In this document: positions 29,563 through 52,147 of the stretch, piece by piece | Numbering within the stretch: position 1 is the first letter of the stretch | Layout of the letters: every line of letters begins with the position of its first letter | From: Bacteroidales bacterium | Lineage (GTDB): Bacteria; Bacteroidota; Bacteroidia; Bacteroidales; M50B96 | Assembly (NCBI GenBank): GCA_021740905.1 | Contig: JAIOYV010000007.1 | Coordinates: forward strand, 1-64,000 | Reading direction: 5' to 3' | DNA length: 64,000 bases | Notes under the pieces: model-generated | What the model saw: the letters and a program-made list of their open reading frames with translations, nothing else | Databases searched by the model: none | What the model was told of the DNA's origin: nothing | Translations under genes and position numbers: made by a program

Positions 29563-29580
29563 GATTTCTGTCCTCATCTT

Positions 29581-32500: not shown

Positions 32501-35500
32501 CCAACTGAATTTACTGTAAGTGTAGCATTGGTACTTTGGTCGTTCCACAGATAGTTAGCATAGTTACCCGGATCGAGCACGATACTCCCACCTGGACAAA
32601 TGCTAATTAATTGTCCTAAATTGGGGTATAAGCCAGATACAAATTGGATAAATATTGTATCATGATCTGCACATTCATTTGAATTGCTTACTGTCACTGA
32701 ATAGTAACCCGTTTGGGTAACAGAGATCGTTTGTGTAGATGCTCCGGTTGACCAGAAATAATTACTTTGTTGACCGGCATCCAAAGTTAAAGTTTGCCCG
32801 GAACAGATTGTCTGATCAGGACCAAGATCAACCGAAACCAGTTCCACAATAAATTCAATTGTATCCACCGTGGTACAGCCGACTTCATCGGTTACTGTTA
32901 AATAATAGAAACCGGGTTGGGTGAAAATGGCTGTATCGGCAGTACTTCCTGTTGACCATTCAAAATATAAATAAGGGCTTCGTGGTGAATGATATACAAA
33001 ATAATACTGTCCACAACTGGTTATTACATCATTCATTGGCGATAAACCCTGGTTCATGTTCACATAGATTGTATCGCTATCGGTACATCCAAAATTCAGC
33101 ATTTCTACACTTACCCAATAGGTTCCATTATCGGTAATGGTTATGGTCTGGGTTGTTTCACCTGTCGACCACAGATAGGTGTCGAAAGTTCCGGCATCGA
33201 GGACATAGCTTGTATCGCCACAAAGTTGAAGGTCAGGTCCCAGGTTAACATCAACATCAATTACCTGAATGGTAACCGAAGCCGAGGCAGTATAGAATCC
33301 ATCTTCCACCGTAAGTGTATACACTGTGGTGACTTCAGGGCTTACCAGTACATCGGGATTGGATGTGGCACCGGTATATGGATTTTGCATCCAGGTATAG
33401 AAATAGGTACCCAGGCCTCCCGCGACGGTGCTGTAAATAGATACATTTTGACCCTTGCAAATTAATGTTGCACTTGGGTCGAGACTTACTGTAAGTGGGG
33501 GTATTGCCGTTCCAAAGTCGATATAGGTATGATTATTATAGATGTTGAATTCTTCGGGATTCGAATTGACAATATTGGCATGGATCCGCCCGTAGGGCGA
33601 TGTTACCACCCAATTGAAAGGCACATCAATGGAATCGTATGGTGCCGCCGTAAATGGAATGGTGGCTATTACCGTGGTGGTATTAAGAATTTCCAGACTG
33701 AGGACAAGTTCAGCAGAACCTGTTGCCCCTCCATTGTTCTCGATGACTGAATTGATTAAGATAGTATCGCCCATACTTGGGAAAGTATCGCTCAACCATA
33801 TCCCCTGACCGGCATCCGAGAAGGTGTGGTCGGGTGCATCGCCCACAATAATGGCACGGCTGGCCATGTTGTTCATCTCATTGGTTTCAACCACATCGTT
33901 GAAGGCATCTACCTCCATTCGCAAAACGTGCGTACCTATCAGCGTCGAAGAGAACGGCGCAGTGCAAGCCACCGTGGAGTCTTCGTGGGCCGCAATTCCA
34001 CTTACATAAATCGAATCACCCAACTGCACCGAATTCGCATAGAACTTAATAAAGAACGGCCCTGCCGGAACATTTCCTTCGTTGGTGAAAGAGCCGTACA
34101 CATCAATTACTTCACCCGGATCGGGATTCAGTTCTGTAGGTGAAATATGCTGCGACAATACCTGCAAGTCGGGATCTTCGCCATATACATGTATATGCAG
34201 AATGGTTGTATTGTTGGTTTCGTCCAATTCGCAATAGCGGGTCGAATCGGGCCAGATCATATCGGCATAAATCAAGATGTCATAATCGCCGGTGTAGTTA
34301 AATGTGTACAAATGATTACTCGGGGCATAGCTTTGGTGGTTGATTAATGGAACACCATCGTAAGCAATAAGGGTGCTTCCATTCATAATATAGGAAACAA
34401 ACACAGTATCGGCATCAAGGGTTCCGTTGTTATAAACCCTGCATTTCATGTTTACGGTTGACCCGACCAATACCGAAATATGACTACTATAATAATAAGG
34501 CCAGAGACTTGGTACGAAATCAGTCCCTATTGGCCTGTTTGTATAATTATTATATTCATTTGTTTCAGGGATTAAATTTTCCTCATCGACAGTGGCTGAC
34601 ACCTGATGTGGGCAATCTTCCACCTGCCAGGGATCGGAAGTGATCAGCATATTTACACCGGCCGGCAGGTAGTTCACCCAAATCGAATCGCTGAGTTGAA
34701 CCCCATCTATATAATACCTCACATAGAAATCGCTTGCATCGGCTGTCCCATTGTTCCAGATTGTTGCTGTGAAGTTTATGTAACCTCCAATGGGTGGATT
34801 GTAAGCGGAGAAACTGATGTCAGAAATTTTTAAATCAGCAATTGCCTGTTCAACATAGAATGAACCTGTAAGTGTATTATTATATTCATTTAATTCTGCC
34901 ACATTATTGTATGGATCAACAACCATCATTATGTAGTGCCAACCAACCTGGTTGAAGGTTTGGTTATATAGGTATTGGTTATCCCAACTGAGGCTTCCAA
35001 TTGCATCGACCGGCACATTTGCCAGGAAAAATGTATCGGGTCCGTAAATGTGGTAAATATCCACCGAGCATGTATCTGTTGGTGTACATTGAGTATTGGC
35101 TGTCCTGAAGGTCATGTTTATTGGATGGCCTTGTAATGGAGAATTATCGCTGAACCATATATTCGTGGGTTGTAAGTCTGGTTCCAGCGGATATATCCAT
35201 CGAGTCCGTTGCCCGTAATTATTCCATTCGGCCAATTCCCAAATATCGTCATACGGGTCAATGTCAACACTTACGCTATGATAGTCTACGGTATTGTAGG
35301 TCACCCAAAATGTAATGATCTTATTGGTCCCTGCCGGGATAGAATCGTATACCGGTGATAATATCAAGCTATTATCTTTGAAAACATGAACCAGGGCATT
35401 GTATGCCGTCATGTTCCCAATATTAGTCACAATGGCTGTCACTTCAATGGGGTCGCCAATTCGTCTGCACTCAGATGTCCAGTGAATATCCGTGCCCCAC

Positions 35501-38500
35501 CAATAGGTAATGGCAAGGTCGGGCCCCATTATCGGATTGTTGACCACCGGAACATACACCGTAAAATATTTGGTCGGTGCATTAGCAAGTAAAGTAAAAT
35601 CGGTTACCGTTGCATTGACTGTATAGGTACCAACAGTTGACGGGGCAGTAAAATAGAGACTAAAATCCCCTACTGAGTTTGTATAGATTGTGTACGTGTA
35701 TCCGGTTTGAGCGATGGTAACCTGAACCTGTGCCCCGGAAACCACAGCATTCGGATCATACGAGTTTACATAGTCGGCATGTCCCCAATAATGTACGGTT
35801 CCATAAGGTGAAACAGTAGAAGGTGCAATATTTGCCGATACAACAATCGCCCCGGGGATGGAAAATTCGCCCACAACCACCGGCCTTATAGCAAAGTTGT
35901 TCAACTCGTTGTCTTCAATAATGTAGTTCTGTTCATCAATCACTACCTTCATCGGATAAAATTCATCGATGGTGAATACATGGGTGATGTACACCGTACT
36001 TGATGATTGTGGTCCGAGATAGGGTATCCACAATTCTACGAGGAATGAATCCTCCTCATAAAATTTCACGGATACATTTTGTGCAGGATAATCGGAATTG
36101 TTATGCACAGTGGCCGAAATTGTAACTACTTCTCCAACAGCGGGTGTCAGATTTGAGAAGTTAATATCATTGGCGTAGATCGAAACATCGAGGAAATCGT
36201 TGCTCACATCAGGATCTGATCTGTATTGAAGCGCTTCTCCAACAGGTGGGTTCCCAAGACTGTCGTAAGCAAAGAAGGAATAACCCAGATTGAAATTGAT
36301 GGGCAACTGACGAACAAAGAAATATTCCTTCCCATCGGTATAATCCACATCGGTAGGGTCTAATTCATACATTGGGAATTCATCCTCGCCCGAATCCAGA
36401 AAATCCGTATCGCCATTCAAACCTACCCCAACAACAGGGTAACCTGTCATTGGTGGATTGTTATCGGCATCGGTATAAATTACACGGTATTCAAACCACT
36501 GATCGGTTGATCCAATTAGCGGGTCAACCCCGTGAATACCATTATATGGCATTGAATCGACATACGTCAAAATTGGAGCTTGTGACAAGAAGAAACCGCG
36601 TCCATCGAGCAAAATTTCTTTGGTGCCGATAGCATTCACAGTCCACAACAGGGTACTTTCGTAAATCGCAATAGCATCGGGATTGAAATAAACCGTAACT
36701 GTTTTGTGCCCTCCTACCGGGATGGTGAAAATAGTATCGGAAACCGAGAAGTGTGCTGTGTCCGACATCGACCAGTCGTCCATTGTGAAAGGAACATTTC
36801 CCCAGTTATAAATAGTCAGGTTCTTACTTGCCCCTACTGCGTTGTCGACCAAGCCAAAATCGTGCTGACTCCAGGAATAACCCCACACATAACTTGGCAT
36901 TTCCCCAATCCCGGTAACCGGGACATTGATTACCCCAATGTTGGTGGCAATATGAATGGTTTCATTGTAAATTACCGTGTAGCTTGGCATAAATGTTACC
37001 GGCACATAGATACTTGCCCCAGCCGGAATGAATGTATTCAAGAAGAGCGGCATGGTGTAAGGCGCAACCGAATAGATACTGTCGATGGTTAAGTCAACGT
37101 TTCCATTATTTAATATTTGTAAATTCAGGGTTTCTCCAACATTTATTACAGTGTACCCAAAATTTAAAGTGGATGGTAGGGAAACCAACGTTGCATGTAA
37201 AATATCAAGATTTACAGGGATGATGTATTGTAAAAGATTTGGGTCGTTGGATGTAATATTGATAGTAGTTTGATAATTCCCATGTGGATTATTTCCATCG
37301 TACGTAACAAAAATGCTATCGTGCCCGCCTGCAGGGATGGAACCGGAATATTGGTTTAGGGAAAGCCAGTTGGCATTTTCTGTTAAGGTATAATTTAATG
37401 GGCCAAAGCCATTGTTCACAATAAAGAAAGTATCATGTTCCAGTTCCTGGTAAGTTACATATTTTGATAAGGAAGTTGTTGAGACACTCATCTCTGCCCC
37501 ATAAAGTAGAAGAGAAACCGGGACGAGAAGGCTTGGATTAACCAGGTCGTTGGATGTAAGTTGCAACTGGGCCAGGTAATCACCACCGTCGTTTATACCG
37601 TTGAAAGTAAAATCTACATCGAGGTAGCTGTTGGCAGGAATAGTATCTATCGCAGGTGTGACGGTGAGCCATTGTGCAGGAATACCACCAAAGTTGAAAT
37701 ACAGTGGGCCATCGCCATTGTTGTTAATCCTGAATTGTTTGGTGCTGGTATTGCCCCAATAGAGGGTGTCGCCAATACTCATCTGTGTTAATGAAATTAT
37801 TGGTGGGTTAAGCCCTGTGGCTGCAAGGGGTACTTCCAATATGGGGTTGCCAGAACTGTTGAAAATCCGCAAAGTATCTTCATGTGCACCGGCTGAAGTA
37901 GGTTCAAAAATTACGTTTACAAATTTGTGCGAATAAGGAAATACATACGGATATTCAAACTCCAGACTATAATCCGGATCGGACAATATCCAATCGCTTA
38001 CGTTGATCAAAGCTTGTCCTGGATTGACCACATCAATCTGCAAGTTTTCAGATAAGCCAATATAAGTATCTGAAAAGGTAAGTGATGCAGGTGAAACTAA
38101 TAAATTGTCAGCACCTGAAACTGTCATCATTGCCAAAACAGTTGTTTGCGGTAAATCAGGATCGTTGGAATTTACCCGGATGGGGATTTCATAATCTCCG
38201 GCAGCAAAGCCATTGGGTGTAAAATTCACGTTAATACTATTAGTGCCAGATGCAGAGATTGTCCCGGATGTGGGGCTTAGGCTGAAAAAACTATCCAGGA
38301 TTTGTCCTGAACCGGTGCGGGTTGCATTTCCATAGAAAGTACCGTTGTTGCCTTGTGTACTTGCATCCTGTGCTATATTCCCACTGGCTTCGTTGAACTT
38401 GTAATACAATGCCAGGCCGGGTTCAGTTCCAAATAATCCCTGTCCCATCATAGCCTGTATTTCAGTGTCATTTTTATAGAGACCCCAGATTCGGAGTTCG

Positions 38501-41500
38501 TCTATTTTTCCTTTGAAGTATTCGTTGAAATAGGATCGGCCTATTCTAACATTCAGGGTATTTGCGCTAATGGTGAACGGCGCATAAGTCATCTCGGCAT
38601 CAAGTACACCATTGATGAATACTTGCAAGACTTTCCCATTGGTCGAGGCCGCCACATGAGTCCATGTATTCACCGGGATTGTGGTGGTCGAACTTACTGA
38701 CTTGCTGTTGTTCAACTGGAATTGAAGTTTTCCTGATGAATTTATATACAACCTGTAATTACCAACTGCCGAATATTCCTTGGCTACAATGAACTCCTGA
38801 CTATTATTTTCGGGATAAATCCAGGCTTCGATAGTCAAAGCTGTATCAGGATTCAATTCCGGAGCATTGGCCACGTTCAGGTAATCGCCATTGCCATCTA
38901 GCAATAAGGCTTTTCCCGCCCGGTTATCAACCTGAAGATTATACGTGAGAGGCTGCCCCCCCGAATTATGAATATTGAAAGTTTGTATACCTGGCAGTAA
39001 ATCGGATGATGAAAACTGGACAGTGTCCTTGTTCAACACAATATTCTGGGGTAAGTTACCTACTCCCTGTAAAGCAACCGGGAAAACCGGCCAGTTGACA
39101 GCATTCGAATACACCGTGAAGATACCCGAATAGCTTATTGCCATGGAGGGTGCAAACAACAAGGGGATGGTATCGCTGGTTCCGGGAAGAATATAAAAGT
39201 TTCCGGGACCGGCATAACTAAATACCGGATTGCTTATTTCAAGAGAGTCGATAAAAAGGGTGTCGCTTCCAATATTTTGAATGATGTAATTGAACAAGCC
39301 GTAAGTTCCCACATTTACAACCCCAAAATTATGGAAATTGGGAGCTGCCAAATCGGGTTGACCAGAAACAATCAAATTCATCGAATAGGTCAAGCTTGGG
39401 TCGATCAAATCATTTGAATTAATCTGGAATGTACCCGAATAAAGTCCGGCATACACGCCAACAGTTGATACGTTTATCTGAATAGCCATACTATCCAGCA
39501 CACCTACTGTTCCGGCAGCCGGATTGAGCGATAGCCACGGAATTGAATTGATAAGGGTAAATTCAAGATTTGCCTGACCATAATTGTAAATGTAAAAAGT
39601 GTCGATCATAAAATCTCCCGAGTTCATACTACCAAACCAGGATAGGGATGAAACCTCAATATCAGCGGGAGTCAATCCGGTTCCTTGCAAAGTTACCAAT
39701 GCAGTATCCTCGTTCGATGCATTGGAAATTATCCAGAGACTGTCGATAATTAAACCGTCAATAGTTGGTGTAAAATCTATCGAAATGGTTTCCGTATTCA
39801 AGGGGGCAATTTCAATTGGAAAAACCAATGGATTGGTAAACGAGAACGCATTGTTCAAATCAAAATACATCGTATCAATTATAAGGCTGTCGGTACCAAT
39901 ATTGGTAAGCACAATGCTTTGAGAGCTTGACTGACCAACTATTAGATCACCAAAATCAATTGCAATTGGATCAATTGAGATTTGAGGGTTTCCTGTCACA
40001 TTCAGGGTTATGGGAAGATTGATATTGGAGTTGTTCAACGAGTTGCTTTTTACATTGAAGTAGAAGTTGTACAAACCGTCAATCAGGCCTGCCGAGAATA
40101 CATTTATATCCACATTAACAGAAGTGCTTTGTGCAAGTGTGTCGATACCTGTTTGCGTTTGAATCCAATTGTAATAGGTGGGTGCACCAATGTTACTAAT
40201 ACTTGCTCCAGATTGTAATGTGCCATTGTTGCCGTTACCCACTAAATTATTTGCAGTACCGTCATCAAAATTGTAGTATTTCACAAGTCCTGCTTCGTTG
40301 CCTGCAAAGGTATTGTGCATATTGGAGGCAATATCGGATTCGGATCGTACATAATTCCAGAGTTTGACTTCATCGACAAGGCCTGGGAAATTATTGCCTC
40401 CACAACATGCTTCTCCACCAATCCGAACATCGCTGCCATAGCCAGTATAGTTTGTCAAAACGGGGGCTGAGGCTAAAAATACTCCATTTACATATAATCG
40501 GGCGGTAGTTCCGTCATTTGTTGCAGCCACATGTGCCCATTCTCCTATAACAGCTGCACCAGCAATTCCACCTGAAACAGTTTGGGAACAATCGGATGGT
40601 GGATCAATCCCAACACTATAGATTCCAGATGACATAGAAATCCCCCAATCCACACAAGAGGCGAATCCTCCAAATATTGTTCTTCGTCCACTTGGTGTTG
40701 AGGAAGGTTTTACCCATGCCTCAACAGTCCATTGAGTGCCTGGTGATAAACTTCCGAGTGCGACATAATCGTTGCTGCCATCAAGGGAAAGGCAAGTGCC
40801 ATTTGGATTTTCACCAGGAATAAGTTCATAATATAAATCCTCCGTTCCTGCATTTTGAATATTCAAATTCAAAATTGTGGAATCAGGCTCATCTAATGCG
40901 ATGAAGAAAGAAGTCGGATTAATAATAATGTCTGGTACATCAATATTTAAACTACACACCGAAAACATTCCATAACCAAAGTTTCCATTCCCAACCGTGT
41001 AGGTAGCGGTGGCATCAAACTCCGAATCGTAGGTGTTGATGCTTGTCCACACTTTATACGACATGGCGTTTCCGGGTGTAAAACCGGGAAGGCCCAACTG
41101 AACATCAGCCTGCCATGCAGTAAGCAAGATGCTTCCACTAAGGCTTTGGACGGCAGAAACCCCAACGCATAAACTTCCATCGAAGACTGCAATTTCATCG
41201 CCGATCTTCAGGTTTGAGCCCAGGTTGTGGTCTTCAATAACAATGGTGTAGGGAAGACCTGTTTCATTCACCGAAAGAAAATGACCGTCAATTCCAACAC
41301 CGCTCAGGTTTACCACAGGGTTGCCTGCATTTGACTGGACTGTCAGGGTACCTGTTTTTAAGCCTTTCCCGGTAGGCGAAAATTGCACTTCAACCAACTG
41401 ATTGTCGTTTGTGTTGGCAAGGGTAAAACTTGTGGGTGAGGCAACAAACTGTCCGTTCGATGACGACATACCGCTTATTGTAAGTGGGGCTGTTCCATTA

Positions 41501-44500
41501 TTGATAACATTGAAGAAGAGGCTTTTTGTGTTGCCAACTTCAACGGTATTAAATTCGAGGTTTTGCTGCGTGAGATTAATATCCGTTTGTCCCACAGGCA
41601 AAGCGAAACCTTCGAGGGTAATAATGGTTTCCAAATGTTCTGGATCGTTGCTGAACACATGCAACTGGGTTGAATAATTTCCGGGAGTTGTAGGCGTGAA
41701 ATTAACAATTACTTCAACCGTGTCGTTTGCATTTATATATCCATATTGAATGGAAGTCGAGAAGGCTGCACTGTTCTCCGCAAAACTCAGGTTGGCTGGT
41801 GCATTGCCCACATTGTAAATATAAAACGTGTCGCTGGTCGATTGATTTACCTGCACTTGACCTGCATACACACTGGAATCCGAAAAAACAAGTTCGGGGT
41901 CTAAGCCCGAGGTGGCCGATAGGTCAACCACCGTGAAGGGTACATAGCCAAAGTTCCCGTTGCCTTGTAAATAGGTGGGTGTTGCATTCAATTCAACCCA
42001 CGTATCAAACACATTGGCATAAAGCTTAAACGACATTGGGTTGCCAGATGTAAAACCTACCAGACCTTGCGTTGGGTCGGCTTCCCAGGTAACTATATTG
42101 AACGCATTCGAAACCAGTTGACTTCCCCCTTGAATATTGGCGTTCCCATATAGGGTGCCATTATGTGAGTTTCCGCTATAATCAAGTGGCAGGAAATTGT
42201 CAAAACTGTAATAGACTTCCAGGTTCGGTTCGTTCCCGATTAAAGTATTATTCATTTGGGCTAGAATTTCAGTTTGTGATTTGGCATAGTTCCAAATCCT
42301 GACCTCATCGATTTGCCCGTTGAAGTAGCCTTTGTCGGCAGAATAGCCTACGTCGATTCCTGTTTGAGAGGTAAAGTCGGAATAAGATTTACTACCGGAA
42401 GCTTTCAAAATACCATCTACATAAATTTTCTGACCTCCTTGTGTGCCCCCAAAAACATGGGCTACATGATGCCAGTTTCCATCGCCATAGTTGTAGCCCG
42501 AAGTATTGATTACCTCATTGCTCCAAACCCTGGTGGTTATGTTTCCATTATTCAAATATATATGACGGTCGTGACCGCCACCTATCACGGAGAATAAGCC
42601 TCCGTTCGAGCTGTTCGTTTTAAACCACATCTCGCAAGTGTAGTTGCTTTCCGACACATTTACGGTGGCTTCGAGATAATCCCCGCTACCATCCAGTGTA
42701 AGGGAATTACCTGATGAGTAAGAGAAATTGTTGACACCCACACAAAGTGTATTGTCAAACACACCAACCTGGTCGCCAAGCTCAATGCTATTGCCATCAA
42801 TCTCAGCACTGTTTACAATAATATTATAAGGAAGCCCGGTAGGTGATGCAGGATTGAAATAATACTGTCCTGCATTCGCGTAAATGGCAATATTGACATT
42901 CCCATTGTTTGAATACACCGTAAGATTTGTATAATAGGATCCTTGTGCCAATGGCTTAAACTTCAGGAAATATTGTTGATTTTGGTTTTGTGTCAAAGTA
43001 AGGCTTGCAGGCCCGGTAAGTGTCGAGTAAGGCAAGCCTGTACTTACATTGGTTATTATAAGATCACCATTTCCCACATTTTGAACAGTAAAAGGAAGCG
43101 TAAGGCTATCGCCTATATTTATATTTCCATAATTCAGATATTGGGGCATAACAGAAATGGATGGAGTAGGGGTAGGCAAACCGGTTCCATGCAATGCAAC
43201 CGAAACGGTGGGTTGATTTGGATCGTCTGTATGCAAGGTCAATGTTTCAGTATAAACCACTACCTGAGTGGGTGTAAAAGTAATTACGATTGTGTCAGAA
43301 TCTCCCGGGTCAATCATCATGCTTGACGGGCTTCGGCTAAAGTTAGTCGAACTTGACACTATATTATATACATCAAGGATGGCTGTTCCAGTGTTTGTTA
43401 CTATCAAGGTGTCCGACAAACTTGAGTTTATCGGGAGGGCATTGAAGTTAAACAAGGATTGAGAAATGGTATATCCAGGAGTCAAGCCGGTGGTAATATT
43501 CAAACTAACAACGGAAAAAGTACCCGTGCCAAAATTTCCATTCCCCATTGTGAAAGTGGGTGTGGCTGTGAATATTTGCATTTCTGAAAACCAGGTAGTC
43601 CTTACTTTGAAGGTAATGGGATTACCCGAAGTAAAACCTGCCAAACCCTGCGAAGCATCAGCTTGCCAGGTCACCATCTGTGCATTTTGGTTATTGTTAT
43701 TGAAAACAGAACCTACACAAGTGCTGCCATCGTAAGCGGCAATACTGGCATTCGTTGGCAAACTGCCGCCATCAATAGTTACTCCGGTAATAATTATGGA
43801 GTATGGCAAACCGGTTGGATCGACTGGTGAAAAGGGTGCTGCGCTCGAATTATTGGGCAGTACGGGAGCCGATGACGAGACAAAAACAGCATCGTATTGC
43901 AGCGTCCCATTATTTTCGTTTGGAGATAGGTCATAAGCTGTGGTCCCGAAGCTTTCGTTAAGGTTGAAGGCCATCAACAGTCCGAGTTCATTTCCAATTA
44001 GCTCTGTGTACATTTCAGCTACTATTTCTTCTTCCGAAGCAAAAACATAATTATAAATTCGCACTTCATCAACAGCTCCCTTCCAGTAATAGGCATTAGT
44101 TTCCATGCCAATATTTAGCATGCTGGCACCTCCAGTGAAACTAGCACTATTAACATAAATGCCATCGATGTAGAGGGTGCCTGTTGATCCCGATTTTACA
44201 TACGTTAAATGATGCCAGTTGCCATCGAAGGCATCGGTACTGGTACCAAAATTCGAAATGTAGTTCCCATCCTGTATCCCGAAATAATTATTCCCGGAGT
44301 GCTTCCCAAGAAAGAAACTTCCGTCGATACTACCTATAATGGTACGATAGGAATCCCCCGAACTACCTTCAAATTTGAACCAGGTCATCATAGTAAAATT
44401 AGTCAGGTTCGACCGGTTAATGGGGGTCGTAATCCTATCCTGATTGCCGTCGAAGCTTACTGCATAATTTTGCGCATTCAGGCTAAAACTCATAGCTAGC

Positions 44501-44583
44501 AGCAGCAAAAGCAGGGGCATCCGTATATAGAATTTCTTATTTATTTTTCGGTTTCGTGTTTCTGCAAACATTTCTTTTTCCAT
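29581..44583 (-). CDS. 5000-residue multidomain T9SS surface protein
   Basis: The protein has exactly 5000 residues. The signal peptide is at about 20-38 (MPLLLLLLAMSFSLNAQ). LamG domains lie at about 39-230, 618-822, 1258-1462 and 1885-2092. GDEIGVFDG/GNGNFG modules lie at about 250-365, 575-885 and 1098-1218. Many HYDIN/ASPM-like Ig domains fill the region to about 2700. About seven CARDB domains (2808-3694) precede a PKD-like domain. Ten Ig-like repeats opening LGPD...C.G occupy about 3781-4464. Two further Ig-like domains, dockerin-like repeats (DVNASGGITAADALLVLRK, CFGDVNDSY), a cohesin-like domain (4774-4897) and a T9SS type A tail (NFPNPFSNLTHIDYS) close it. LamG often binds carbohydrate, and CARDB and Ig units form stalks, so a long adhesive fibre is likely. 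It is the third gene of the operon. Confidence 0.88.
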   Translation of the reverse strand: MEKEMFAETRNRKINKKFYIRMPLLLLLLAMSFSLNAQNYAVSFDGNQDRITTPINRSNLTNFTMMTWFKFEGSSGDSYRTIIGSIDGSFFLGKHSGNNYFGIQDGNYISNFGTSTDAFDGNWHHLTYVKSGSTGTLYIDGIYVNSASFTGGASMLNIGMETNAYYWKGAVDEVRIYNYVFASEEEIVAEMYTELIGNELGLLMAFNLNESFGTTAYDLSPNENNGTLQYDAVFVSSSAPVLPNNSSAAPFSPVDPTGLPYSIIITGVTIDGGSLPTNASIAAYDGSTCVGSVFNNNNQNAQMVTWQADASQGLAGFTSGNPITFKVRTTWFSEMQIFTATPTFTMGNGNFGTGTFSVVSLNITTGLTPGYTISQSLFNFNALPINSSLSDTLIVTNTGTAILDVYNIVSSSTNFSRSPSSMMIDPGDSDTIVITFTPTQVVVYTETLTLHTDDPNQPTVSVALHGTGLPTPTPSISVMPQYLNYGNINIGDSLTLPFTVQNVGNGDLIITNVSTGLPYSTLTGPASLTLTQNQNQQYFLKFKPLAQGSYYTNLTVYSNNGNVNIAIYANAGQYYFNPASPTGLPYNIIVNSAEIDGNSIELGDQVGVFDNTLCVGVNNFSYSSGNSLTLDGSGDYLEATVNVSESNYTCEMWFKTNSSNGGLFSVIGGGHDRHIYLNNGNITTRVWSNEVINTSGYNYGDGNWHHVAHVFGGTQGGQKIYVDGILKASGSKSYSDFTSQTGIDVGYSADKGYFNGQIDEVRIWNYAKSQTEILAQMNNTLIGNEPNLEVYYSFDNFLPLDYSGNSHNGTLYGNANIQGGSQLVSNAFNIVTWEADPTQGLVGFTSGNPMSFKLYANVFDTWVELNATPTYLQGNGNFGYVPFTVVDLSATSGLDPELVFSDSSVYAGQVQVNQSTSDTFYIYNVGNAPANLSFAENSAAFSTSIQYGYINANDTVEVIVNFTPTTPGNYSTQLHVFSNDPEHLETIITLEGFALPVGQTDINLTQQNLEFNTVEVGNTKSLFFNVINNGTAPLTISGMSSSNGQFVASPTSFTLANTNDNQLVEVQFSPTGKGLKTGTLTVQSNAGNPVVNLSGVGIDGHFLSVNETGLPYTIVIEDHNLGSNLKIGDEIAVFDGSLCVGVSAVQSLSGSILLTAWQADVQLGLPGFTPGNAMSYKVWTSINTYDSEFDATATYTVGNGNFGYGMFSVCSLNIDVPDIIINPTSFFIALDEPDSTILNLNIQNAGTEDLYYELIPGENPNGTCLSLDGSNDYVALGSLSPGTQWTVEAWVKPSSTPSGRRTIFGGFASCVDWGISMSSGIYSVGIDPPSDCSQTVSGGIAGAAVIGEWAHVAATNDGTTARLYVNGVFLASAPVLTNYTGYGSDVRIGGEACCGGNNFPGLVDEVKLWNYVRSESDIASNMHNTFAGNEAGLVKYYNFDDGTANNLVGNGNNGTLQSGASISNIGAPTYYNWIQTQTGIDTLAQSTSVNVDINVFSAGLIDGLYNFYFNVKSNSLNNSNINLPITLNVTGNPQISIDPIAIDFGDLIVGQSSSQSIVLTNIGTDSLIIDTMYFDLNNAFSFTNPLVFPIEIAPLNTETISIDFTPTIDGLIIDSLWIISNASNEDTALVTLQGTGLTPADIEVSSLSWFGSMNSGDFMIDTFYIYNYGQANLEFTLINSIPWLSLNPAAGTVGVLDSMAIQINVSTVGVYAGLYSGTFQINSNDLIDPSLTYSMNLIVSGQPDLAAPNFHNFGVVNVGTYGLFNYIIQNIGSDTLFIDSLEISNPVFSYAGPGNFYILPGTSDTIPLLFAPSMAISYSGIFTVYSNAVNWPVFPVALQGVGNLPQNIVLNKDTVQFSSSDLLPGIQTFNIHNSGGQPLTYNLQVDNRAGKALLLDGNGDYLNVANAPELNPDTALTIEAWIYPENNSQEFIVAKEYSAVGNYRLYINSSGKLQFQLNNSKSVSSTTTIPVNTWTHVAASTNGKVLQVFINGVLDAEMTYAPFTISANTLNVRIGRSYFNEYFKGKIDELRIWGLYKNDTEIQAMMGQGLFGTEPGLALYYKFNEASGNIAQDASTQGNNGTFYGNATRTGSGQILDSFFSLSPTSGTISASGTNSINVNFTPNGFAAGDYEIPIRVNSNDPDLPQTTVLAMMTVSGADNLLVSPASLTFSDTYIGLSENLQIDVVNPGQALINVSDWILSDPDYSLEFEYPYVFPYSHKFVNVIFEPTSAGAHEDTLRIFNSSGNPILEVPLAATGLNPPIISLTQMSIGDTLYWGNTSTKQFRINNNGDGPLYFNFGGIPAQWLTVTPAIDTIPANSYLDVDFTFNGINDGGDYLAQLQLTSNDLVNPSLLVPVSLLLYGAEMSVSTTSLSKYVTYQELEHDTFFIVNNGFGPLNYTLTENANWLSLNQYSGSIPAGGHDSIFVTYDGNNPHGNYQTTINITSNDPNLLQYIIPVNLDILHATLVSLPSTLNFGYTVINVGETLNLQILNNGNVDLTIDSIYSVAPYTMPLFLNTFIPAGASIYVPVTFMPSYTVIYNETIHIATNIGVINVPVTGIGEMPSYVWGYSWSQHDFGLVDNAVGASKNLTIYNWGNVPFTMDDWSMSDTAHFSVSDTIFTIPVGGHKTVTVYFNPDAIAIYESTLLWTVNAIGTKEILLDGRGFFLSQAPILTYVDSMPYNGIHGVDPLIGSTDQWFEYRVIYTDADNNPPMTGYPVVGVGLNGDTDFLDSGEDEFPMYELDPTDVDYTDGKEYFFVRQLPINFNLGYSFFAYDSLGNPPVGEALQYRSDPDVSNDFLDVSIYANDINFSNLTPAVGEVVTISATVHNNSDYPAQNVSVKFYEEDSFLVELWIPYLGPQSSSTVYITHVFTIDEFYPMKVVIDEQNYIIEDNELNNFAIRPVVVGEFSIPGAIVVSANIAPSTVSPYGTVHYWGHADYVNSYDPNAVVSGAQVQVTIAQTGYTYTIYTNSVGDFSLYFTAPSTVGTYTVNATVTDFTLLANAPTKYFTVYVPVVNNPIMGPDLAITYWWGTDIHWTSECRRIGDPIEVTAIVTNIGNMTAYNALVHVFKDNSLILSPVYDSIPAGTNKIITFWVTYNTVDYHSVSVDIDPYDDIWELAEWNNYGQRTRWIYPLEPDLQPTNIWFSDNSPLQGHPINMTFRTANTQCTPTDTCSVDIYHIYGPDTFFLANVPVDAIGSLSWDNQYLYNQTFNQVGWHYIMMVVDPYNNVAELNEYNNTLTGSFYVEQAIADLKISDISFSAYNPPIGGYINFTATIWNNGTADASDFYVRYYIDGVQLSDSIWVNYLPAGVNMLITSDPWQVEDCPHQVSATVDEENLIPETNEYNNYTNRPIGTDFVPSLWPYYYSSHISVLVGSTVNMKCRVYNNGTLDADTVFVSYIMNGSTLIAYDGVPLINHQSYAPSNHLYTFNYTGDYDILIYADMIWPDSTRYCELDETNNTTILHIHVYGEDPDLQVLSQHISPTELNPDPGEVIDVYGSFTNEGNVPAGPFFIKFYANSVQLGDSIYVSGIAAHEDSTVACTAPFSSTLIGTHVLRMEVDAFNDVVETNEMNNMASRAIIVGDAPDHTFSDAGQGIWLSDTFPSMGDTILINSVIENNGGATGSAELVLSLEILNTTTVIATIPFTAAPYDSIDVPFNWVVTSPYGRIHANIVNSNPEEFNIYNNHTYIDFGTAIPPLTVSLDPSATLICKGQNVSIYSTVAGGLGTYFYTWMQNPYTGATSNPDVLVSPEVTTVYTLTVEDGFYTASASVTIQVIDVDVNLGPDLQLCGDTSYVLDAGTFDTYLWSTGETTQTITITDNGTYWVSVEMLNFGCTDSDTIYVNMNQGLSPMNDVITSCGQYYFVYHSPRSPYLYFEWSTGSTADTAIFTQPGFYYLTVTDEVGCTTVDTIEFIVELVSVDLGPDQTICSGQTLTLDAGQQSNYFWSTGASTQTISVTQTGYYSVTVSNSNECADHDTIFIQFVSGLYPNLGQLISICPGGSIVLDPGNYANYLWNDQSTNATLTVNSVGTYSVTVSDQTGCSGSTSVEVAEISVPALNLPDLTWCGNPIPAGTNQGISWLWSTGATNDSITITDMGTYSLTVTFQSGCSRADTFDVNDGQLYFDLGNDTAICSGESFDISVPVLYVPYEWSTGDTSSTITISDGGIYYLTITNPDSQCETVDSIIVTMNPLPEIIWDDQVNLCSGQFITLDPGVFASYFWNNQSTNQILLVSSPGTYMVTVTDQNGCENFRSAWVTQVASPTIDLGPDTTVCEGETVTLDPGVFSGYMWNDQSTNQTLTVGAQGTYYVSVNDANGCGAFDQFVLTVIPISVDLGPDVIMCPGGSVTLDATQFETYLWSNQATTQSITVNQTGVYSITVSDSNGCTAWDDVAVLPSQIAQFDLGPDLNLCQGDQATLFAGYYDTYNWSNGSTNQTLTVWLQNMYSVTVSDLNGCSVSDSINVYVHPLPVVSIIGLDTSYCDIGDVIPLTGSPQGGNFTGTGVSMGSFNPSLVNPGSITIYYSYTDNNGCTNSTSASTTVYAAPTVSFTGLEAQYFTDDPADTLTGSPAGGFFSGGNMQTNIFDPMIAGVGTHTISYGYTDAYGCSDVASQSVFVTTVYDISGAVLYNNQAQTPINPAIVYLEDNNHNALEFTPNNTSGDFQFTQYPNGTYYLSATANLPVNGINATDALNIRRHVVMLTYLGGLNLAAADVNASGGITAADALLVLRKTVGYITSFPAGTWVFDNPQVIILNSDTSQNVYGVCFGDVNDSYQSNPTKQASFVAMEKSGIVQPAQGEEFILPIAVKSATQLGAVTMVINYPSTDFEIISVESKLQDLLYKAENGTLRLAWENVDGAYLSTGEAFVSLKMIRKSDKQGGNFMLTWETEFADINGNVLKDIIITMPEIGSQDEAEGFALGHNFPNPFSNLTHIDYSIPDDAQVRLVVQDVLGQELEILVDDNQDAGNYIVEFNGSKLSAGIYIYKIEVAGESGKFNASRIMQIIK
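40215..40810 (-). other. LamG domain inserted into an Ig-like domain (5000-residue protein)
   Basis: The Ig-like host breaks after DLYYELIPGE and resumes at YNWIQTQTGIDTL. Between them is a complete LamG domain from CLSLDGSNDYVALG to the NGTLQSGAS end motif. Uninterrupted sister domains in the same protein read LNYTLTENANWLSLNQYSG across that point, so the insertion site is the loop just before the tryptophan strand. Confidence 0.7.
42115..42730 (-). other. LamG domain inserted into a GDEIGVFDG module
   Basis: The module starts normally (IDGNSIELGDQVGVFDNTLC) and is split after NNFSYSSGN by a LamG domain (LTLDGSGDYLEATV to NGTLYGNANIQGG). It then continues with FNIVTWEADPTQGLVGFTSG and GNGNFGYVPF. 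The other copies of the module are continuous here. Confidence 0.75.
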
Positions 44584-44628
44584 GATGCAATATATTTTAT
44601 ATGTATGAAAGCAACATTTTATTCAAAA

Positions 44629-45342
44629 TCAGGGAGCTCCCTGGTATATTAGTTTTCTGATAATGATTTCGTCCGCGCAATGGATTTTGACCAGGATCAT
44701 TTGAGTACTGGGCCTGTCAACAATAATTTTTCCTGCCGGGATATTCATTTTTGATTTACCCTGATGAAAAATTTCCTTACTGAGTAATTTCCCTGATATG
44801 TCGAAAAACTCAATCTGATTACAAACCTTCCCTTCAAAATAGAAATGGATAAAATCTGAAAATGGATTGGGGTAAATGGAAATTTGTTTCGGTTCATCTA
44901 TATTGGTCATTCCAACAATTACGGATGTAACCTGCAGACTGATTACAGAGAAACTGCCATATCCGAAATTCCCATTGCCCACCGAGAAGGTAGGAACAGC
45001 TTCCTCGACATAAACAGTTGAACCAACAACCAAACCAGCCTTAAAGCTCATCGGATGTCCCTGTGAAAAACCTTCCAGGCTTTGCGAAGGATCGCCCTGC
45101 CAGGCTACGAGTTGAATATTCCCACTATCGAGAAACAGCACCGTCCCCACGCACAAGGTATCGTCGAATACGGCAATCTCAGTTGAATCAGGCAGGCTTC
45201 CGTTGTTTAGCCCTGCCCCCGAAATGACAATGGAATAGGGTATCCCGGTTGGATCGACGGGGACAAAAGGACTATTGACCTGTGCCTGTATCAGGATCAG
45301 GTTTGCTGTGAGAAATCCTATTATCAGAATAAGTTTATTCAT
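44629..45342 (-). CDS. Minimal T9SS protein with a single GDEIGVFDG-type module
   Basis: The protein has 237 residues from the ATG at 45342, which is preceded by GAAAGAG. A TTG three codons upstream is less likely. The signal peptide (MNKLILIIGFLTANLILIQA) is followed by one copy of the module shared by this operon (about 30-145). It opens FVPVDPTGIPYSIVISG, carries IAVFDDTLCVGT and ends with VGNGNFGYGSFSVISLQ. A T9SS type A tail follows (ISIYPNPFSDFIHFYF to LIYQGAP). It is the simplest member of the set and shows that the module can stand alone on the surface. It lies between the 2064- and 5000-residue genes, with gaps of about 70 and 45 bases. Confidence 0.8.
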   Translation of the reverse strand: MNKLILIIGFLTANLILIQAQVNSPFVPVDPTGIPYSIVISGAGLNNGSLPDSTEIAVFDDTLCVGTVLFLDSGNIQLVAWQGDPSQSLEGFSQGHPMSFKAGLVVGSTVYVEEAVPTFSVGNGNFGYGSFSVISLQVTSVIVGMTNIDEPKQISIYPNPFSDFIHFYFEGKVCNQIEFFDISGKLLSKEIFHQGKSKMNIPAGKIIVDRPSTQMILVKIHCADEIIIRKLIYQGAP

Positions 45343-45369
45343 CTCTTTCAAATGGCTTTATTAAATAAT

Positions 45370-45404
45370 GGAAACCTGCCAACTTACTGGTCGGGCAGGC
45401 TTCC
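45370..45404 (-). terminator. Hairpin between first and second surface genes (terminator or attenuator)
   Basis: GGAAACCTGCC (45370-45380) pairs with GGCAGGCTTCC (45394-45404) with one mismatch. It sits just after the stop of the 2064-residue gene. The following minus-strand bases are AT-rich but lack a strong T-run, so partial readthrough into the downstream giant genes is likely. Confidence 0.5.
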
Positions 45405-45413
45405 TTTAAAGAA

Positions 45414-48400
45414 TTATTTTATCCTGATAAGTTTTTCTGTTGTCCTTTCAGTGCCATTGTTGAATTCGATGAAATAAACTCCGGTTGAAATCTTGTTTCC
45501 TCCCGAATCAGAGCCATTCCAATTAAATGTATGGCTGCCTGCAGTCAGGGTTTTCTGGAGAATTACGTCAATTTCCCTGCCCGAAAGATCTGTTACGCGC
45601 AAGGTTACATCGCTTTCTTCTTCAAGATATATGGAAATATTGGTTGTTTCGGCAAAGGGATTTGGGTAACAACTGAAACCGGTTTGTACATCCTGAACAG
45701 GTTCAATTTCAACATGGGCAAAATTAGCTGCCTTGAAATGCTCGTTGTCGTTGTTATTCAATCCTTTCGAGGCACAGGCCAATTCACCAAACTGTGCCGA
45801 GTACAACCTGAAACTCATTTCATGGCCTTTCTCAAAGCCCGATAGTTTGGTTCGGGAATCACCTTCCCAGCCTGTGATAAGTATTCTTGAAGAACCAGTA
45901 ATTACGGCTGCTCCAACACAAGCATCATTATCAAACACTGCAATTTCATCACCGGGTTGTGGTTGTTGTCCATTAACTTCGGTAACATCAGCAACAATCT
46001 GGTAAGGTAAACCTGTTTTTGCAAATTTGAAATATTGAGGTTGTGGCTGAACAGGTAGATCTACCTTATTGGTGCCATTCACTACTTGGTACACCAGATT
46101 AATATTTGATTGTGAGCTTAAAGCAATTTGATATCCCATTGCAGGCATGAAATTTCCCAAAGTGTTGATATTTAGCGATGGAATCCATGCGTTTCCATTG
46201 GAAGCCTGAATGATAGAAATTGAATCGACAATTGACGGAAGAATAGCAGATACTACTGGGGACATTACATCACCCAAATAGGCAATTGAATTCCATTTGT
46301 TGACTTCTACCAAAATAGGCCATTCAGCCGGGTCGATTGGAGTTCCTTCAAAGAAAACCGTATCATTGGAATTAGTATAAACATGGTATCCATCCTTGAA
46401 ATAAATATCTCCAATAGTGTTGATATTGTAAGGTGGAATAAGTGCGTTTCCAGCATCGTTATAGGCTATTTGCAAATCACTTAAATCTCCAAACACAGTT
46501 GTGGCAGCACTATAATGTGGCAATAAGTTGAACGAAATTAGATTAAACATTCCTCCCGTAATTGGCACTTCCTGGATTTTGTACACGGTACCATTCAGGC
46601 TAAGAGCCGAAAAAGTTTTGAATCCGAAGGTGCCATCACCCACTGTGTATGTTGCATCTGAGGGAGCTTCAAGATCGGCAGAGGTATCATAAATGATGAA
46701 AGACATAATATTTCCTGAAAGGAATCCTGTTATTCCTGCAGCCGGTTCGTCTTCCCAAACGGTAATTACAAAGTTGAAATTCCCATCGAAAATTCCAGCA
46801 CCCACGCATAGGCTTCCATCATATACCCCAATTTCATCGCCAACTGCAATGGTAGCTCCATCTACCATAGCATTTGTTATAATAATAGTATAGGGTATGC
46901 CGGTTGGGGTTACCGGAGTAAAATGTACCGGGGTAGAAGGCACAGTTTGTCCAAATGTCAAAGCCATTTCATATTCAATATCCTGATTCCCGAGGATATT
47001 AGAATAAATATGCTGAGTATAAAGATAGGTTCCGGTTTGTCCTGAATTAATAAAATCGAAAGGAATCGAAAGTGTGGCACTGGCTGCAATATCATAACTT
47101 TCGCCGTTCGGTAATATATAAGGTATAATATCATAAGCAATCCCGGAGGTGGTTGTTAGGTACATATTTCCACTAACATTGAAACCAATTCCATAAATAG
47201 AATGGTCGTTGTGGTCATTCTTTAGCGGCCAGTAACCCAATAGGCCAGGTTCTGAACCTGTTAAGGGAGAATACATGTGTTTTTGGATTTCTTCCTGGCT
47301 ACGGGCATAGTTCCAGATCCTGGCTTCGGATAAATATCCATTGAAATCATAACTCCAATCGTTTGCACGGGCACCAATGGTAAAATAATAGGTCAGGTTT
47401 GGAATTGCATTTGGCATCACGTTATCGTTGTGGTCAACCAGATTGCCATCGGCATAAAACCACATATCTGTTCCTTCCCAGGTAATGGCCAGGTGGTGCC
47501 ATTCATTTGCAGGAACCACCCAGTTGGCTGTATAATTTTCATAAAAGTCAGAGGTAAATCCTTTGTACGTCCCAAACATGTTATTGCTATTAATATACAT
47601 AGAATATTGTCGGTAATGCTTACCAAAGAATTCCATGTGGCCATTAGCTTGTCGGTAAACCCATAATTCCATAGTCATTGCCGTCATGCCTTCTAAGTGG
47701 GCCGGATCGGAAGCATAATAGAAATCATCGCCACCGTCGAAATGGGTACACTTGTTATCCGATCCTTGTGGAAATTCTATATGCAATTCTTTCGATCCAT
47801 TGTTTGTAACCAACAGGTTTTCATTTAGGGTATCAGTTGTTATGGTTAGGTTAAATGCTTCGGGATCGAACCCTATTCCGGGAACACCAGGGATTGCTGA
47901 AACTTTTGGGGCATATCCACTAACAGAGAAACCATACACACCCGCTACCGTGAAATTGTAAAGCGAATCGTTGGTCAGGCCAGTAACATCTGTTGATAAA
48001 CCAGCCGCATTGCCAAACATGGTATAGGTGCTGGCCGAATTGAGTTTATAATAGACATTGTATGAAAGTAAGCTATCTATTTCGATGGAATCCCAACGTA
48101 AACTAATGGTCTGGTTTGAATAACCATCCACATAGATGTTGTGAGGATACCCCTGATCGAAATACAAAGCACCTAAATCGGAAGTTGTTTTATCGGGATC
48201 GAGTATTGCAGGATCGCCGGTATTAATACAGGGCGATGGAGCCGATAATTGGAGATCTAATGAATCAACAGCAAATAGGAACAAAGGATCTTCCGAAATA
48301 TTCAGGTAGATGTCAGCCGAATCGTTTTGGGCATTATAGGATACAAAGTTCCACGAGTTGACCGGCAGATTTGCGGTATTGGAAACTTCACCGGTGCCGT

Positions 48401-51608: not shown

Positions 51609-52147
51609 TTTCTTTCCTCCTAAATTAGGTATAATATTTATCGTAGTATTATGTGTTAAAACAATCATTCCATATAGTACGCTATGTGTTCAAAAGTACC
51701 TGCGCTACATTCCAATTCTGGGTTTTGGCTATGTAGCTAAACAATGTGTAATAATCCAATCCTCACTTTCGTACCCAAAATTAAGGTTTCTTGTGGAATT
51801 TTAAAATTTTTTAAGACAGTTTTTTAAGAAAAAAACAGTTTTTATTTAAATTCTTGCAAAAGAGTCTTCTTTTTTTACCGGAACTATAAATAAGGATAAT
51901 TGGACTATATGTTGATAGCGAAGTGTCAAGGTGAGTTTAGTTGATCATTTTCTAAATAAGGTCTAAATAATGATTGTGAATCTTAATGCAGCCCTGGTGG
52001 CTTGCCCCGTAGAAGGCGGTAAAAGGATTAATCAATTTTAATATCTGGATATCAACACAGGCAAGCCTTTCTTTATTTTAAGGAAGGAGTGTGCATTTAA
52101 TTATTTACTATTCAACTCCTCAACTCTTCAACTCTTCAACTTTTCAA
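51609..52147. other. Intergenic region upstream of the surface-protein operon
   Basis: About 540 bases. The minus strand has a TAnnTTTG match, TACTTTTG, at 51698-51691, about 85 bases before the first surface gene; this is the best promoter candidate. An 8-bp inverted repeat, GGCTTGCC (51999-52006) and GGCAAGCC (52060-52067), and a CAACTCTT tandem microsatellite (52101-52150) lie nearer the MFS gene end. I see no gene. Confidence 0.45.

Follow-up and report, generated by a model that had tools for sequence, protein, structure and literature searches.

Split Ig-like domains in giant Bacteroidota proteins with T9SS-type tails as probable sockets for LamG and other domains

Why should LamG domains recur in one and the same loop of Ig-like hosts? 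The question is raised by a 64,000-nucleotide stretch from a Bacteroidales bacterium (contig JAIOYV010000007.1, positions 1 to 64,000; the window hereafter), in which the first-pass annotation had read four of five LamG copies as nested rather than placed in series, with either a preferred recombination site or a structural reason behind their common insertion site. All five copies score above the Pfam gathering cut-off for LamG (PF13385), four of them in gene A and one in gene B (Table 1). The gene A product consists of a leader (assigned by eye), LamG, GD modules, a chain of HYDIN-type Ig domains, CARDB, PKD-like repeats (also by eye) and a T9SS-type tail; that of gene B runs from an AgmC-N-like Gly-rich region through a beta-helix, fn3, a socket Ig with LamG and GD modules to a T9SS tail. 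Specifically, the T9SS type A sorting domain TIGR04183 scores 42.8 bits in gene B and 23.9 bits in gene A, the latter barely above the NCBIfam cut-off of 23, and the Pfam tail model scores 36.8 bits in gene B, above its cut-off of 27, and 22.9 bits in gene A, below it. Elsewhere in the same genome, LamG is also held by other hosts, HYR-like and PKD-like as judged by eye.

Direct reading and alignment with uninterrupted sister domains confirm that four of the five LamG domains are nested at the places proposed, with slightly different borders. Three lie in one loop of an Ig domain of the HYDIN type, which we term a socket, and one lies in a GDEIGVFDG-type module. An HMM built from naturally uninterrupted (empty) sockets matches both halves beside the inserts.

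Table 1. Positions of genes, nested LamG domains and their hosts in the window
Feature	Position	Strand	First-pass borders	Basis or remark
Gene A	29581..44583	-		5000-aa giant protein
LamG 1 of gene A	43888..44466	-		after N-terminal leader; in series, unnested
GD(E/Q)(I/V)xVFD module, N-half (host)	42709..42858	-		pLDDT 86-93, residues 11-40
LamG nested in GD module	42136..42708	-	42730-42115	place unchanged in G002 ortholog
GD module, C-half (host)	41914..42108	-		
Socket Ig 1, N-half	40798..40935	-		HMM from uninterrupted sisters
LamG in socket Ig 1	40177..40797	-	40810-40215	PA14 at that place in G002 ortholog
Socket Ig 1, C-half	39991..40176	-		HMM from uninterrupted sisters
Empty (uninterrupted) socket-type Ig	39361..39669	-		HMM match, sister alignment
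Socket Ig 2, N-half	38917..39048	-		sister alignment and AlphaFold2 composite
LamG in socket Ig 2	38296..38916	-	38930-38330	75% identity to G002 ortholog counterpart
Socket Ig 2, C-half	38113..38295	-		sister alignment and AlphaFold2 composite
Empty socket-type Ig	37498..37806	-		HMM match, sister alignment
Empty socket-type Ig	37198..37497	-		HMM match, sister alignment
Uninterrupted GD module, sister of the split one	44929..45267	-		gene C, 45351-44629
Gene B	45414..51668	-		2084 aa
Gene B socket Ig, N-half	47754..47882	-		
LamG in gene B socket	47130..47753	-	47765-47160	place unchanged in G002 ortholog
Gene B socket Ig, C-half	46950..47129	-		

Structure prediction, named in the first-pass annotation as a check, is consistent with the split Ig domain and served the GD module less well. 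For the LamG-in-Ig composite of socket 2, AlphaFold2 (with 11 underlying sequences) gave a mean pLDDT of 79.4 and a pTM of 0.68, and placed strands in both Ig halves; in ten-residue blocks, the pLDDT is 85-92 in the N-half and an uneven 59-91 in the C-half. The modelled LamG matches LamG/pentraxin folds (best Z 23.8 over 197 residues, rmsd 2.3), and also PDB 4DQA, a LamG-type putative carbohydrate-binding protein of Bacteroides ovatus (Z 22.9, 198 residues, rmsd 2.5), in a match confined to the LamG part of the composite. In a search of PDB sequences with an E-value limit of 0.01, all matches of composite profile A1 likewise fell on its LamG part. In the GD composite (overall pLDDT 55.3, pTM 0.41), the host halves reach 80-94 apart from the first ten residues at 51, whereas the LamG part, with only 2 sequences covering it, lies mostly below 50. 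Of the four nested LamG domains, the ConA/LamG-like fold test thus has one well modelled and the GD one poorly modelled. The weak PDB matches of the GD-module model, the best of which spans the two halves (Z 5.7, rmsd 3.7, 93 residues), carry no information on kinship.

As for the identity of the Ig host, family matches to HYDIN/ASH/choice-of-anchor-D Ig models (PF22544, PF15780, NF012200) run along gene A, and the empty domains match HYDIN; a profile of 6 natural empties finds Hydin 7sqc in the PDB at 1.8e-14. PF22544 scores 33.8 bits in the PA14-holding socket, against a cut-off of 25.5. BACON domains have a WLxxxPxxGxI look, and the C-half of the PA14-holding socket does match BACON (PF19190) at 7.7e-5, below the cut-off. 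We rejected a BACON identity of the host, as PF19190 scores 23.0 bits in L059:4521-5252 against a cut-off of 25, and 12.2 in window:37807-39666.

The common breakpoint extends well beyond the window. Across 33 loci, whose choice for LamG or long proteins means that insert counts are no census, half-domain HMMs found 83 half-domain pairs, with a gap above 80 aa in 55, a gap of at most 40 in 28 and none between. Inspection accepted 54 of the 55 long-gap pairs; index 48, which spans a GD module, was dropped, and indices 16 and 35 were retained as real sockets despite a wrongly paired N-half. In these 54 occupied sockets, the inserts are about 100-370 residues long and share one breakpoint. Against an HMM of 101 columns made from 7 naturally uninterrupted sister domains only, the N-part matches end at a median column of 40 (48 of 51 within 35-46) and the C-part matches start at a median column of 43 (45 of 51 within 35-52), with three sockets lacking an N-part match and three a C-part match; because the search for these parts went no further than 25 aa from borders that the half-domain HMMs had placed beforehand, the result is a consistency test and no independent discovery. 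Sockets overlooked by the half-domain scan include ones in G173, G087:C47, G049 and G092, and in L092, at 3605, a LamG is accompanied by a C-half and by no recognisable N-half. Canonical HYDIN Ig domains of the same loci gave 110 full-length uninterrupted matches (empty sockets account for some of these) and no clear case of a split domain. Socket and canonical Ig intergrade, the canonical model covering 23 of the 28 short-gap pairs.

It is most improbable that nesting is absent altogether, the flanks being two short Ig-like pieces independent of each other or edge effects of the domain models. Partial domain matches are reported to be mostly alignment or annotation artefacts (PMC4443539), and the C-half-only case in L092 would suit such a reading, but the N- and C-parts are complementary at one sister-domain column in most of the 54 sockets, natural empties occur in the same proteins and AlphaFold2 predicts strands in both halves. 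Sequence and one prediction together argue that a single Ig-like domain is discontinuous around another domain, and the common insertion loop proposed earlier holds.

What the loop holds is broader than LamG. The 54 accepted inserts form 12 sequence clusters, some of which may be distantly related: LamG (24), GEVED (11), MAM-like (4), an unnamed 120-aa type (3), Reelin-subrepeat-like (3), beta-propeller (3) and six singletons, PA14 included; Gly-rich AgmC-like domains are also among the insert clusters. Pfam naming, which covered cluster representatives only (8 + 10 inserts out of 54), gave PA14 (3.5e-19), GEVED (4.1e-15), Reelin_subrepeat-B (3.9e-30), a lactonase-type propeller (5.6e-15) and P_proprotein adjoining a LamG (4.7e-11); one insert shows a weak ThuA likeness (0.016, below cut-off), and several representatives have no Pfam name. 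The three beta-propellers and the Gly-rich, ThuA-like and Pfam-nameless inserts are not obviously binders. The original framing around LamG therefore stands for 24 of 54 inserts but is too narrow, since many other domains occupy the same loop.

A change of content is seen in one orthologous socket. Gene A was searched for in three family members and has an ortholog in one of them, G002, which belongs to another genus (about 55% identity); a scan of named genomes yielded one contig only, G002's own. Where the window's gene A has LamG in socket 1, the G002 ortholog has PA14, and the other three nested LamG domains are retained in the G002 orthologs. This is a comparison of two species, compatible with either order of the two states, and because the PA14 state comes from one metagenome-assembled genome, it may reflect mis-assembly among repeated sockets. 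The N-half of the swapped socket is conserved as far as the junction, and the first 30 residues of its C-half are identical at 8 of 30 positions, against 80 of 150 in five other orthologous sockets (Fisher p 0.009), a sequence difference which hints that the exchange extended into the C-half. For gene B, a whole-protein search of 41 genomes gave, outside the family, only weak matches among those listed, and a composite-profile search found that G087 has a gene-B-like protein in which a LamG is nested.

Could the shared site simply record ancestry, with LamG landing in the Ig loop by chance on one or a few occasions and the composite being copied as a unit thereafter? The LamG tree (106 rows of 107 distinct domains, a few domains being entered twice with slightly different ends) goes part of the way with this explanation. 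Its socket labels, in which nine of ten one-sided cases were set to socket by eye and the tenth to C-half only, are clustered: the label changes 13 times, where shuffling gives a mean of 24.7 and none of 500 shuffles is as low. Additionally, the partner of the socket-2 LamG is its counterpart in G002 (SH-aLRT 100), as is that of the GD LamG (93), and a group with a support of 100 unites the gene B LamG, its counterpart in G002 and the gene-B-like protein of another family (G087:C47). On the other hand, the starred branches force at least three changes of the socket label, so that a single origin of all socket LamG domains is unsupported, and the LamG of the swapped socket belongs, with full support, to a clade of 6 in which every other domain comes from a socket (C-half only in one case), with four other families represented. 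Because GEVED, PA14, propellers, Reelin-like domains and more are found at this site too, and because one orthologous socket differs in content, LamG ancestry alone is insufficient, and we consider inheritance an unlikely explanation of the common site.

A site in the DNA of the loop region at which recombination or insertion is preferred, and which would steer insertions, is far less likely still. The single narrow breakpoint and the divergent start of the swapped C-half count in favour of such a site, but the nucleotide comparison of borders that the first-pass annotation had called for lends it no support. At 15 own-genome sockets, the longest common word of the two borders of one insert averages 5.87, against 5.81 at random positions, that between borders of different inserts is 5.66 and 5.96, against a random 5.85 (sd 0.18), and no shared DNA word, target duplication or flanking repeat above control was found; host interiors are more alike than the borders. 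The canonical Ig domains of the same loci, with no clear split case, also speak against it. Old insertions would have shed such marks, and their absence accordingly does not exclude a recombination site.

Of the two causes first offered for the common loop, the structural one is favoured by the 12 insert clusters, by the lack of a clear split case among the canonical Ig domains and by the reported precedent of RTX adhesin split Ig domains (PMC12077191, PMC10865825). Taken together, we consider it probable that the Ig hosts are split-domain sockets, which would hold domains with a presumed binding role out to the side of a long stalk. A variant of the HYDIN/choice-of-anchor-D-type Ig would accept domains with close ends in the loop that follows predicted strand four and complete its own fold after the insert; tandem Ig domains would form the stalk of giant proteins, putatively exported by the T9SS, and the sockets would carry LamG and other candidate ligand-binding domains sideways off that stalk. 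Over evolutionary time, most inserts would stay and be inherited with the host, and some would give way to a domain of a different type within their socket, perhaps through recombination between sockets. More tentatively, and less probably than not, the Ig halves might act as interchangeable ends of a cassette system, in which recombination within the halves would move binding domains from socket to socket, from gene to gene and between species; the LamG/PA14 difference, the divergence of the first 30 C-half residues and the clade of 6 around the swapped-socket LamG are possible footprints of it. With such a system, the specificities of giant surface proteins would form an evolvable set.

In RTX adhesins, split domains have served as a pointer to domains that bind ligands. 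If the same logic applies to T9SS-tailed Bacteroidota giants, socket content would point to candidate binding domains of uncharacterised giant proteins, and the rule would also reach nameless insert families. Moreover, with its tolerance of lectins, propellers and other folds, the Ig loop offers a ready scaffold for domain-insertion tests and display. A literature search on nested LamG, Ig insertions and split domains in Bacteroidota gave nothing relevant among the matches listed, and Graham et al. 2024 (10.1002/prot.26689) may contain such cases.

The projection of domains from split Ig hosts proposed here, by analogy, resembles that of RTX adhesins, in which ligand-binding domains are reported to project from split Ig domains (PMC12077191, PMC10865825): PA14 buds from a split Ig in MpIBP of Marinomonas, a CBM and an RTX-like beta-roll do so in AhLap of Aeromonas, and the first section of the split Ig in FrhA of Vibrio is a 12-residue strand (PMC10865825). 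Both are long proteins, presumably exported in the present case, with tandem Ig-like domains and an interrupted Ig holding an inserted domain of adjacent ends. Unlike RTX adhesins, however, gene A, gene B and the G002 ortholog of gene A have no match to GGxG[ND]D, a motif close to the nonapeptide consensus given in PMC12077191, and the tails are of the T9SS type (TIGR04183). The host Ig here is HYDIN-related, and about 40 of its 100 residues, with four predicted strands, precede the insert, whereas the split Ig of FrhA and AhLap is interrupted after its first beta-strand (PMC10865825, PMC12077191). Finally, distinct from RTX adhesins, a single protein here has nine filled sockets, and the domains in them are of five kinds.

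Four of the five LamG domains that score above the Pfam cut-off in the window are not in series but nested, as the first-pass annotation had claimed, and both reading and alignment to uninterrupted sister domains in the same proteins confirm this arrangement. Specifically, three LamG domains split a HYDIN-type Ig-like domain, at all three sites between its L.Y.L strand and the following W/F strand, whereas the fourth splits a GD(E/Q)(I/V)xVFD-type (GD) module, first read as GDEIGVFDG; the sisters comprise Ig domains and several GD modules, and the earlier coordinates agree with the measured borders to about 12 codons. We call the Ig host a socket, whose loop is either empty or occupied, its parts before and after the insert the N-half and C-half, and both halves with the insert a composite.

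Features of the window discussed here
Feature	Position	Strand	Remark
Gene A	44583-29581	-	5000-aa giant protein
Gene B	51668-45414	-	2084-aa giant protein, neighbour of gene A
LamG insert in socket 1	40797-40177	-	gene A
LamG insert in socket 2	38916-38296	-	gene A
LamG insert in socket	47753-47130	-	gene B
LamG insert in GD module	42708-42136
LamG in series, not nested	44466-43888	-	gene A
Uninterrupted Ig	39669-39361
Uninterrupted Ig	37806-37498
Uninterrupted Ig	37497-37198
Dockerin-like stretch	30409-30543		gene A; 1.2e-4, 22.6 bits, slightly below cut-off 22.9
Gene with cohesin-like match	21163-29577		just downstream of gene A; 1.7e-9
Partial giant gene	2-7537		21 SprB-repeat stretches, one GEVED domain

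The window lies on contig C17, in a 6.54 Mb draft genome. Gene A encodes LamG domains, a HYDIN/choice-of-anchor-D Ig chain and CARDB, with PKD-like repeats recognised by eye, and gene B an AgmC-N-like region (below the cut-off of the AgmC-N model), beta-helix, fn3, LamG and GD modules. Both proteins pass the NCBIfam model of the T9SS type A sorting domain, gene A barely (23.9 versus a cut-off of 23), and gene A lies below the cut-off of the Pfam sorting-domain model. The dockerin-like stretch of gene A and the cohesin-like downstream gene are a possible partner pair. The GEVED domain of the partial giant gene belongs to the same Pfam family as socket inserts in other genomes.

The two flanking halves are consistent with a single fold. 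In an HMM built from seven natural uninterrupted sockets (three from gene A, three from its ortholog in G002, a genome of the same family but another genus, and one from contig C52 of the source genome), N-part matches around 54 occupied sockets stop at median column 40 of 101 and C-part matches resume at median column 43, with three sockets lacking an N-part match and three a C-part match; partial matches were counted within 25 residues of borders located beforehand with half-domain HMMs, so this result is a consistency check. The AlphaFold2 model of the Ig composite at 39054-38113 (11 sequences; mean pLDDT 79.4, pTM 0.68) has an N-half of four strands (blocks 85-92), followed by LamG and by the C-half strands (blocks 59-91). 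Its modelled LamG aligns with PAPP-A, 4DQA and pentraxins (best Z 23.8 over 197 residues, rmsd 2.3), and the empty-socket profile matches HYDIN in the PDB (1.8e-14). In the GD composite, prediction is confident for the host halves (80-94) but not for the LamG part (overall pLDDT 55.3), and the fold matches of the host model are weak.

N-half and C-half HMMs, run over the 33 loci that were fetched, yielded 83 half-domain pairs, separated by more than 80 residues in 55 and by at most 40 in 28, with none between. One wide-gap pair was a false pairing; the 54 accepted inserts, present in 13 of the 33 loci, form 12 sequence clusters: LamG (24), GEVED (11), MAM-like (4), an unnamed 120-residue type (3), Reelin-subrepeat-like (3), beta-propeller (3) and six singletons (PA14, a Gly-rich domain, a weakly ThuA-like domain and three unnamed). 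Names derive from Pfam scans of 18 of the 54 inserts, the counts are not a census because loci were picked for LamG or length, and clusters without a sequence link, such as MAM-like and Reelin-like, may be distantly related. In particular, a 7308-aa open frame on C52 (from 990, + strand) has ten sockets, one empty and nine occupied by five kinds of domain: LamG plus P-domain, two more LamG, three beta-propellers, two jelly rolls resembling MAM (scoring below its cut-off) and a Gly-rich domain. The Gly-rich stretch overlaps a region 42% identical to the N-terminal part of gene B. As judged from these assignments, socket use is not limited to LamG.

The content of one socket differs between orthologs. 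In G002, on a contig matching JANTGP010000015.1 ('MAG: Bacteroidetes bacterium isolate bin10073'), the orthologs of genes A and B are adjacent and 54-56% identical, and nested LamG is kept in gene B, the GD module and socket 2; socket 1 instead holds an in-frame PA14 of about 140 residues (PF07691, 3.5e-19). The socket 1 N-halves are 55% identical as far as the junction, whereas the first 30 C-half residues match at 8 of 30 positions versus 80 of 150 summed over the five further orthologous socket pairs that were compared (27% versus 33-63% each; Fisher p 0.009), which hints, in one case from one metagenome-assembled genome, that the exchange extended into the C-half.

A quick maximum-likelihood analysis of 106 LamG domains shows the socket LamGs clustered (13 label changes versus 24.7 in shuffles) but not as a single clade; starred branches force at least three changes. 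The socket 1 LamG falls in a clade of six (SH-aLRT 100) whose other members are from G049, G118, G096 and G054, five of the six lying in sockets and one having a C-half only; the remaining gene A LamGs do not have it among their nearest tree rows. At L092 (G049:C722) a socket C-half follows the LamG at residue 3605, but no N-half is recognisable ahead of this LamG; the host may be half lost. A profile of seven composites, searched against 198 genomes of the order, gave at least 26 composite-spanning matches (position ≤14 to ≥303) in at least 10 genomes, including the source and G002, a lower bound because about 11 candidates per genome were scored and only matches listed are counted. Across a sample of 198 genomes from the phylum (E ≤1e-20), the only full-span matches listed beyond the source genome were three, all from G346, which shares only the phylum with it. 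There, at L131 and L132, the composites lie in reading frames 872 and 883 aa long, one of them behind a peptidase-like domain (by eye); sockets may thus be used not only in stalks but also with enzymes.

The common insertion site had been attributed to either a preferred recombination site or a structural reason, and this interpretation held in part: nesting at a common Ig loop stands. At 15 sockets of the source genome, the longest word common to the two borders of one insert is no longer than at control positions, and different inserts have no more border sequence in common than random. These border comparisons give a preferred DNA site no support, but old insertion events could have lost its marks. 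On the protein side, a canonical HYDIN Ig model built from the same proteins gave 110 full-length, no N-part-only and eight C-part-only matches in the same loci, the last being five socket C-halves, a sixth after a LamG (G092) and two on contig C83. Of the 28 short-gap pairs, 23 are matched by this canonical model too, which means that the boundary between canonical and empty socket domains is not sharp. Elsewhere in the source genome, by eye, LamGs at about 1257 and 1639 of a 2801-aa frame (L017, C22) appear to split HYR-like repeats and one at 137 of L019 (C42) a PKD-like repeat, so nesting would not be confined to HYDIN-type Ig; on C5 a LamG possibly splits a HYDIN Ig at a different loop.

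Because the two chain ends of LamG and PA14 folds are adjacent, such domains can fit into a single loop of a rigid Ig. We propose that the insert would be threaded into this loop, the Ig fold would close after it, and the insert would project from the stalk, leaving its distal face exposed. Split Ig domains of RTX adhesins are reported to project ligand-binding domains in this way, e.g. a fucose-binding CBM or PA14 (PMC12077191, PMC10865825). The window proteins may work similarly, with putative binding and projection. Unlike RTX adhesins, they bear T9SS tails and a HYDIN-type host Ig, no RTX repeat was found in them, and the insert begins some 40 residues into a domain of about 100, not after a first strand; by the features tested they are not RTX adhesins. 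The split-Ig principle is already known; what these T9SS-tailed giants add is a multi-purpose version of the socket, whose content differs between orthologs in one case.
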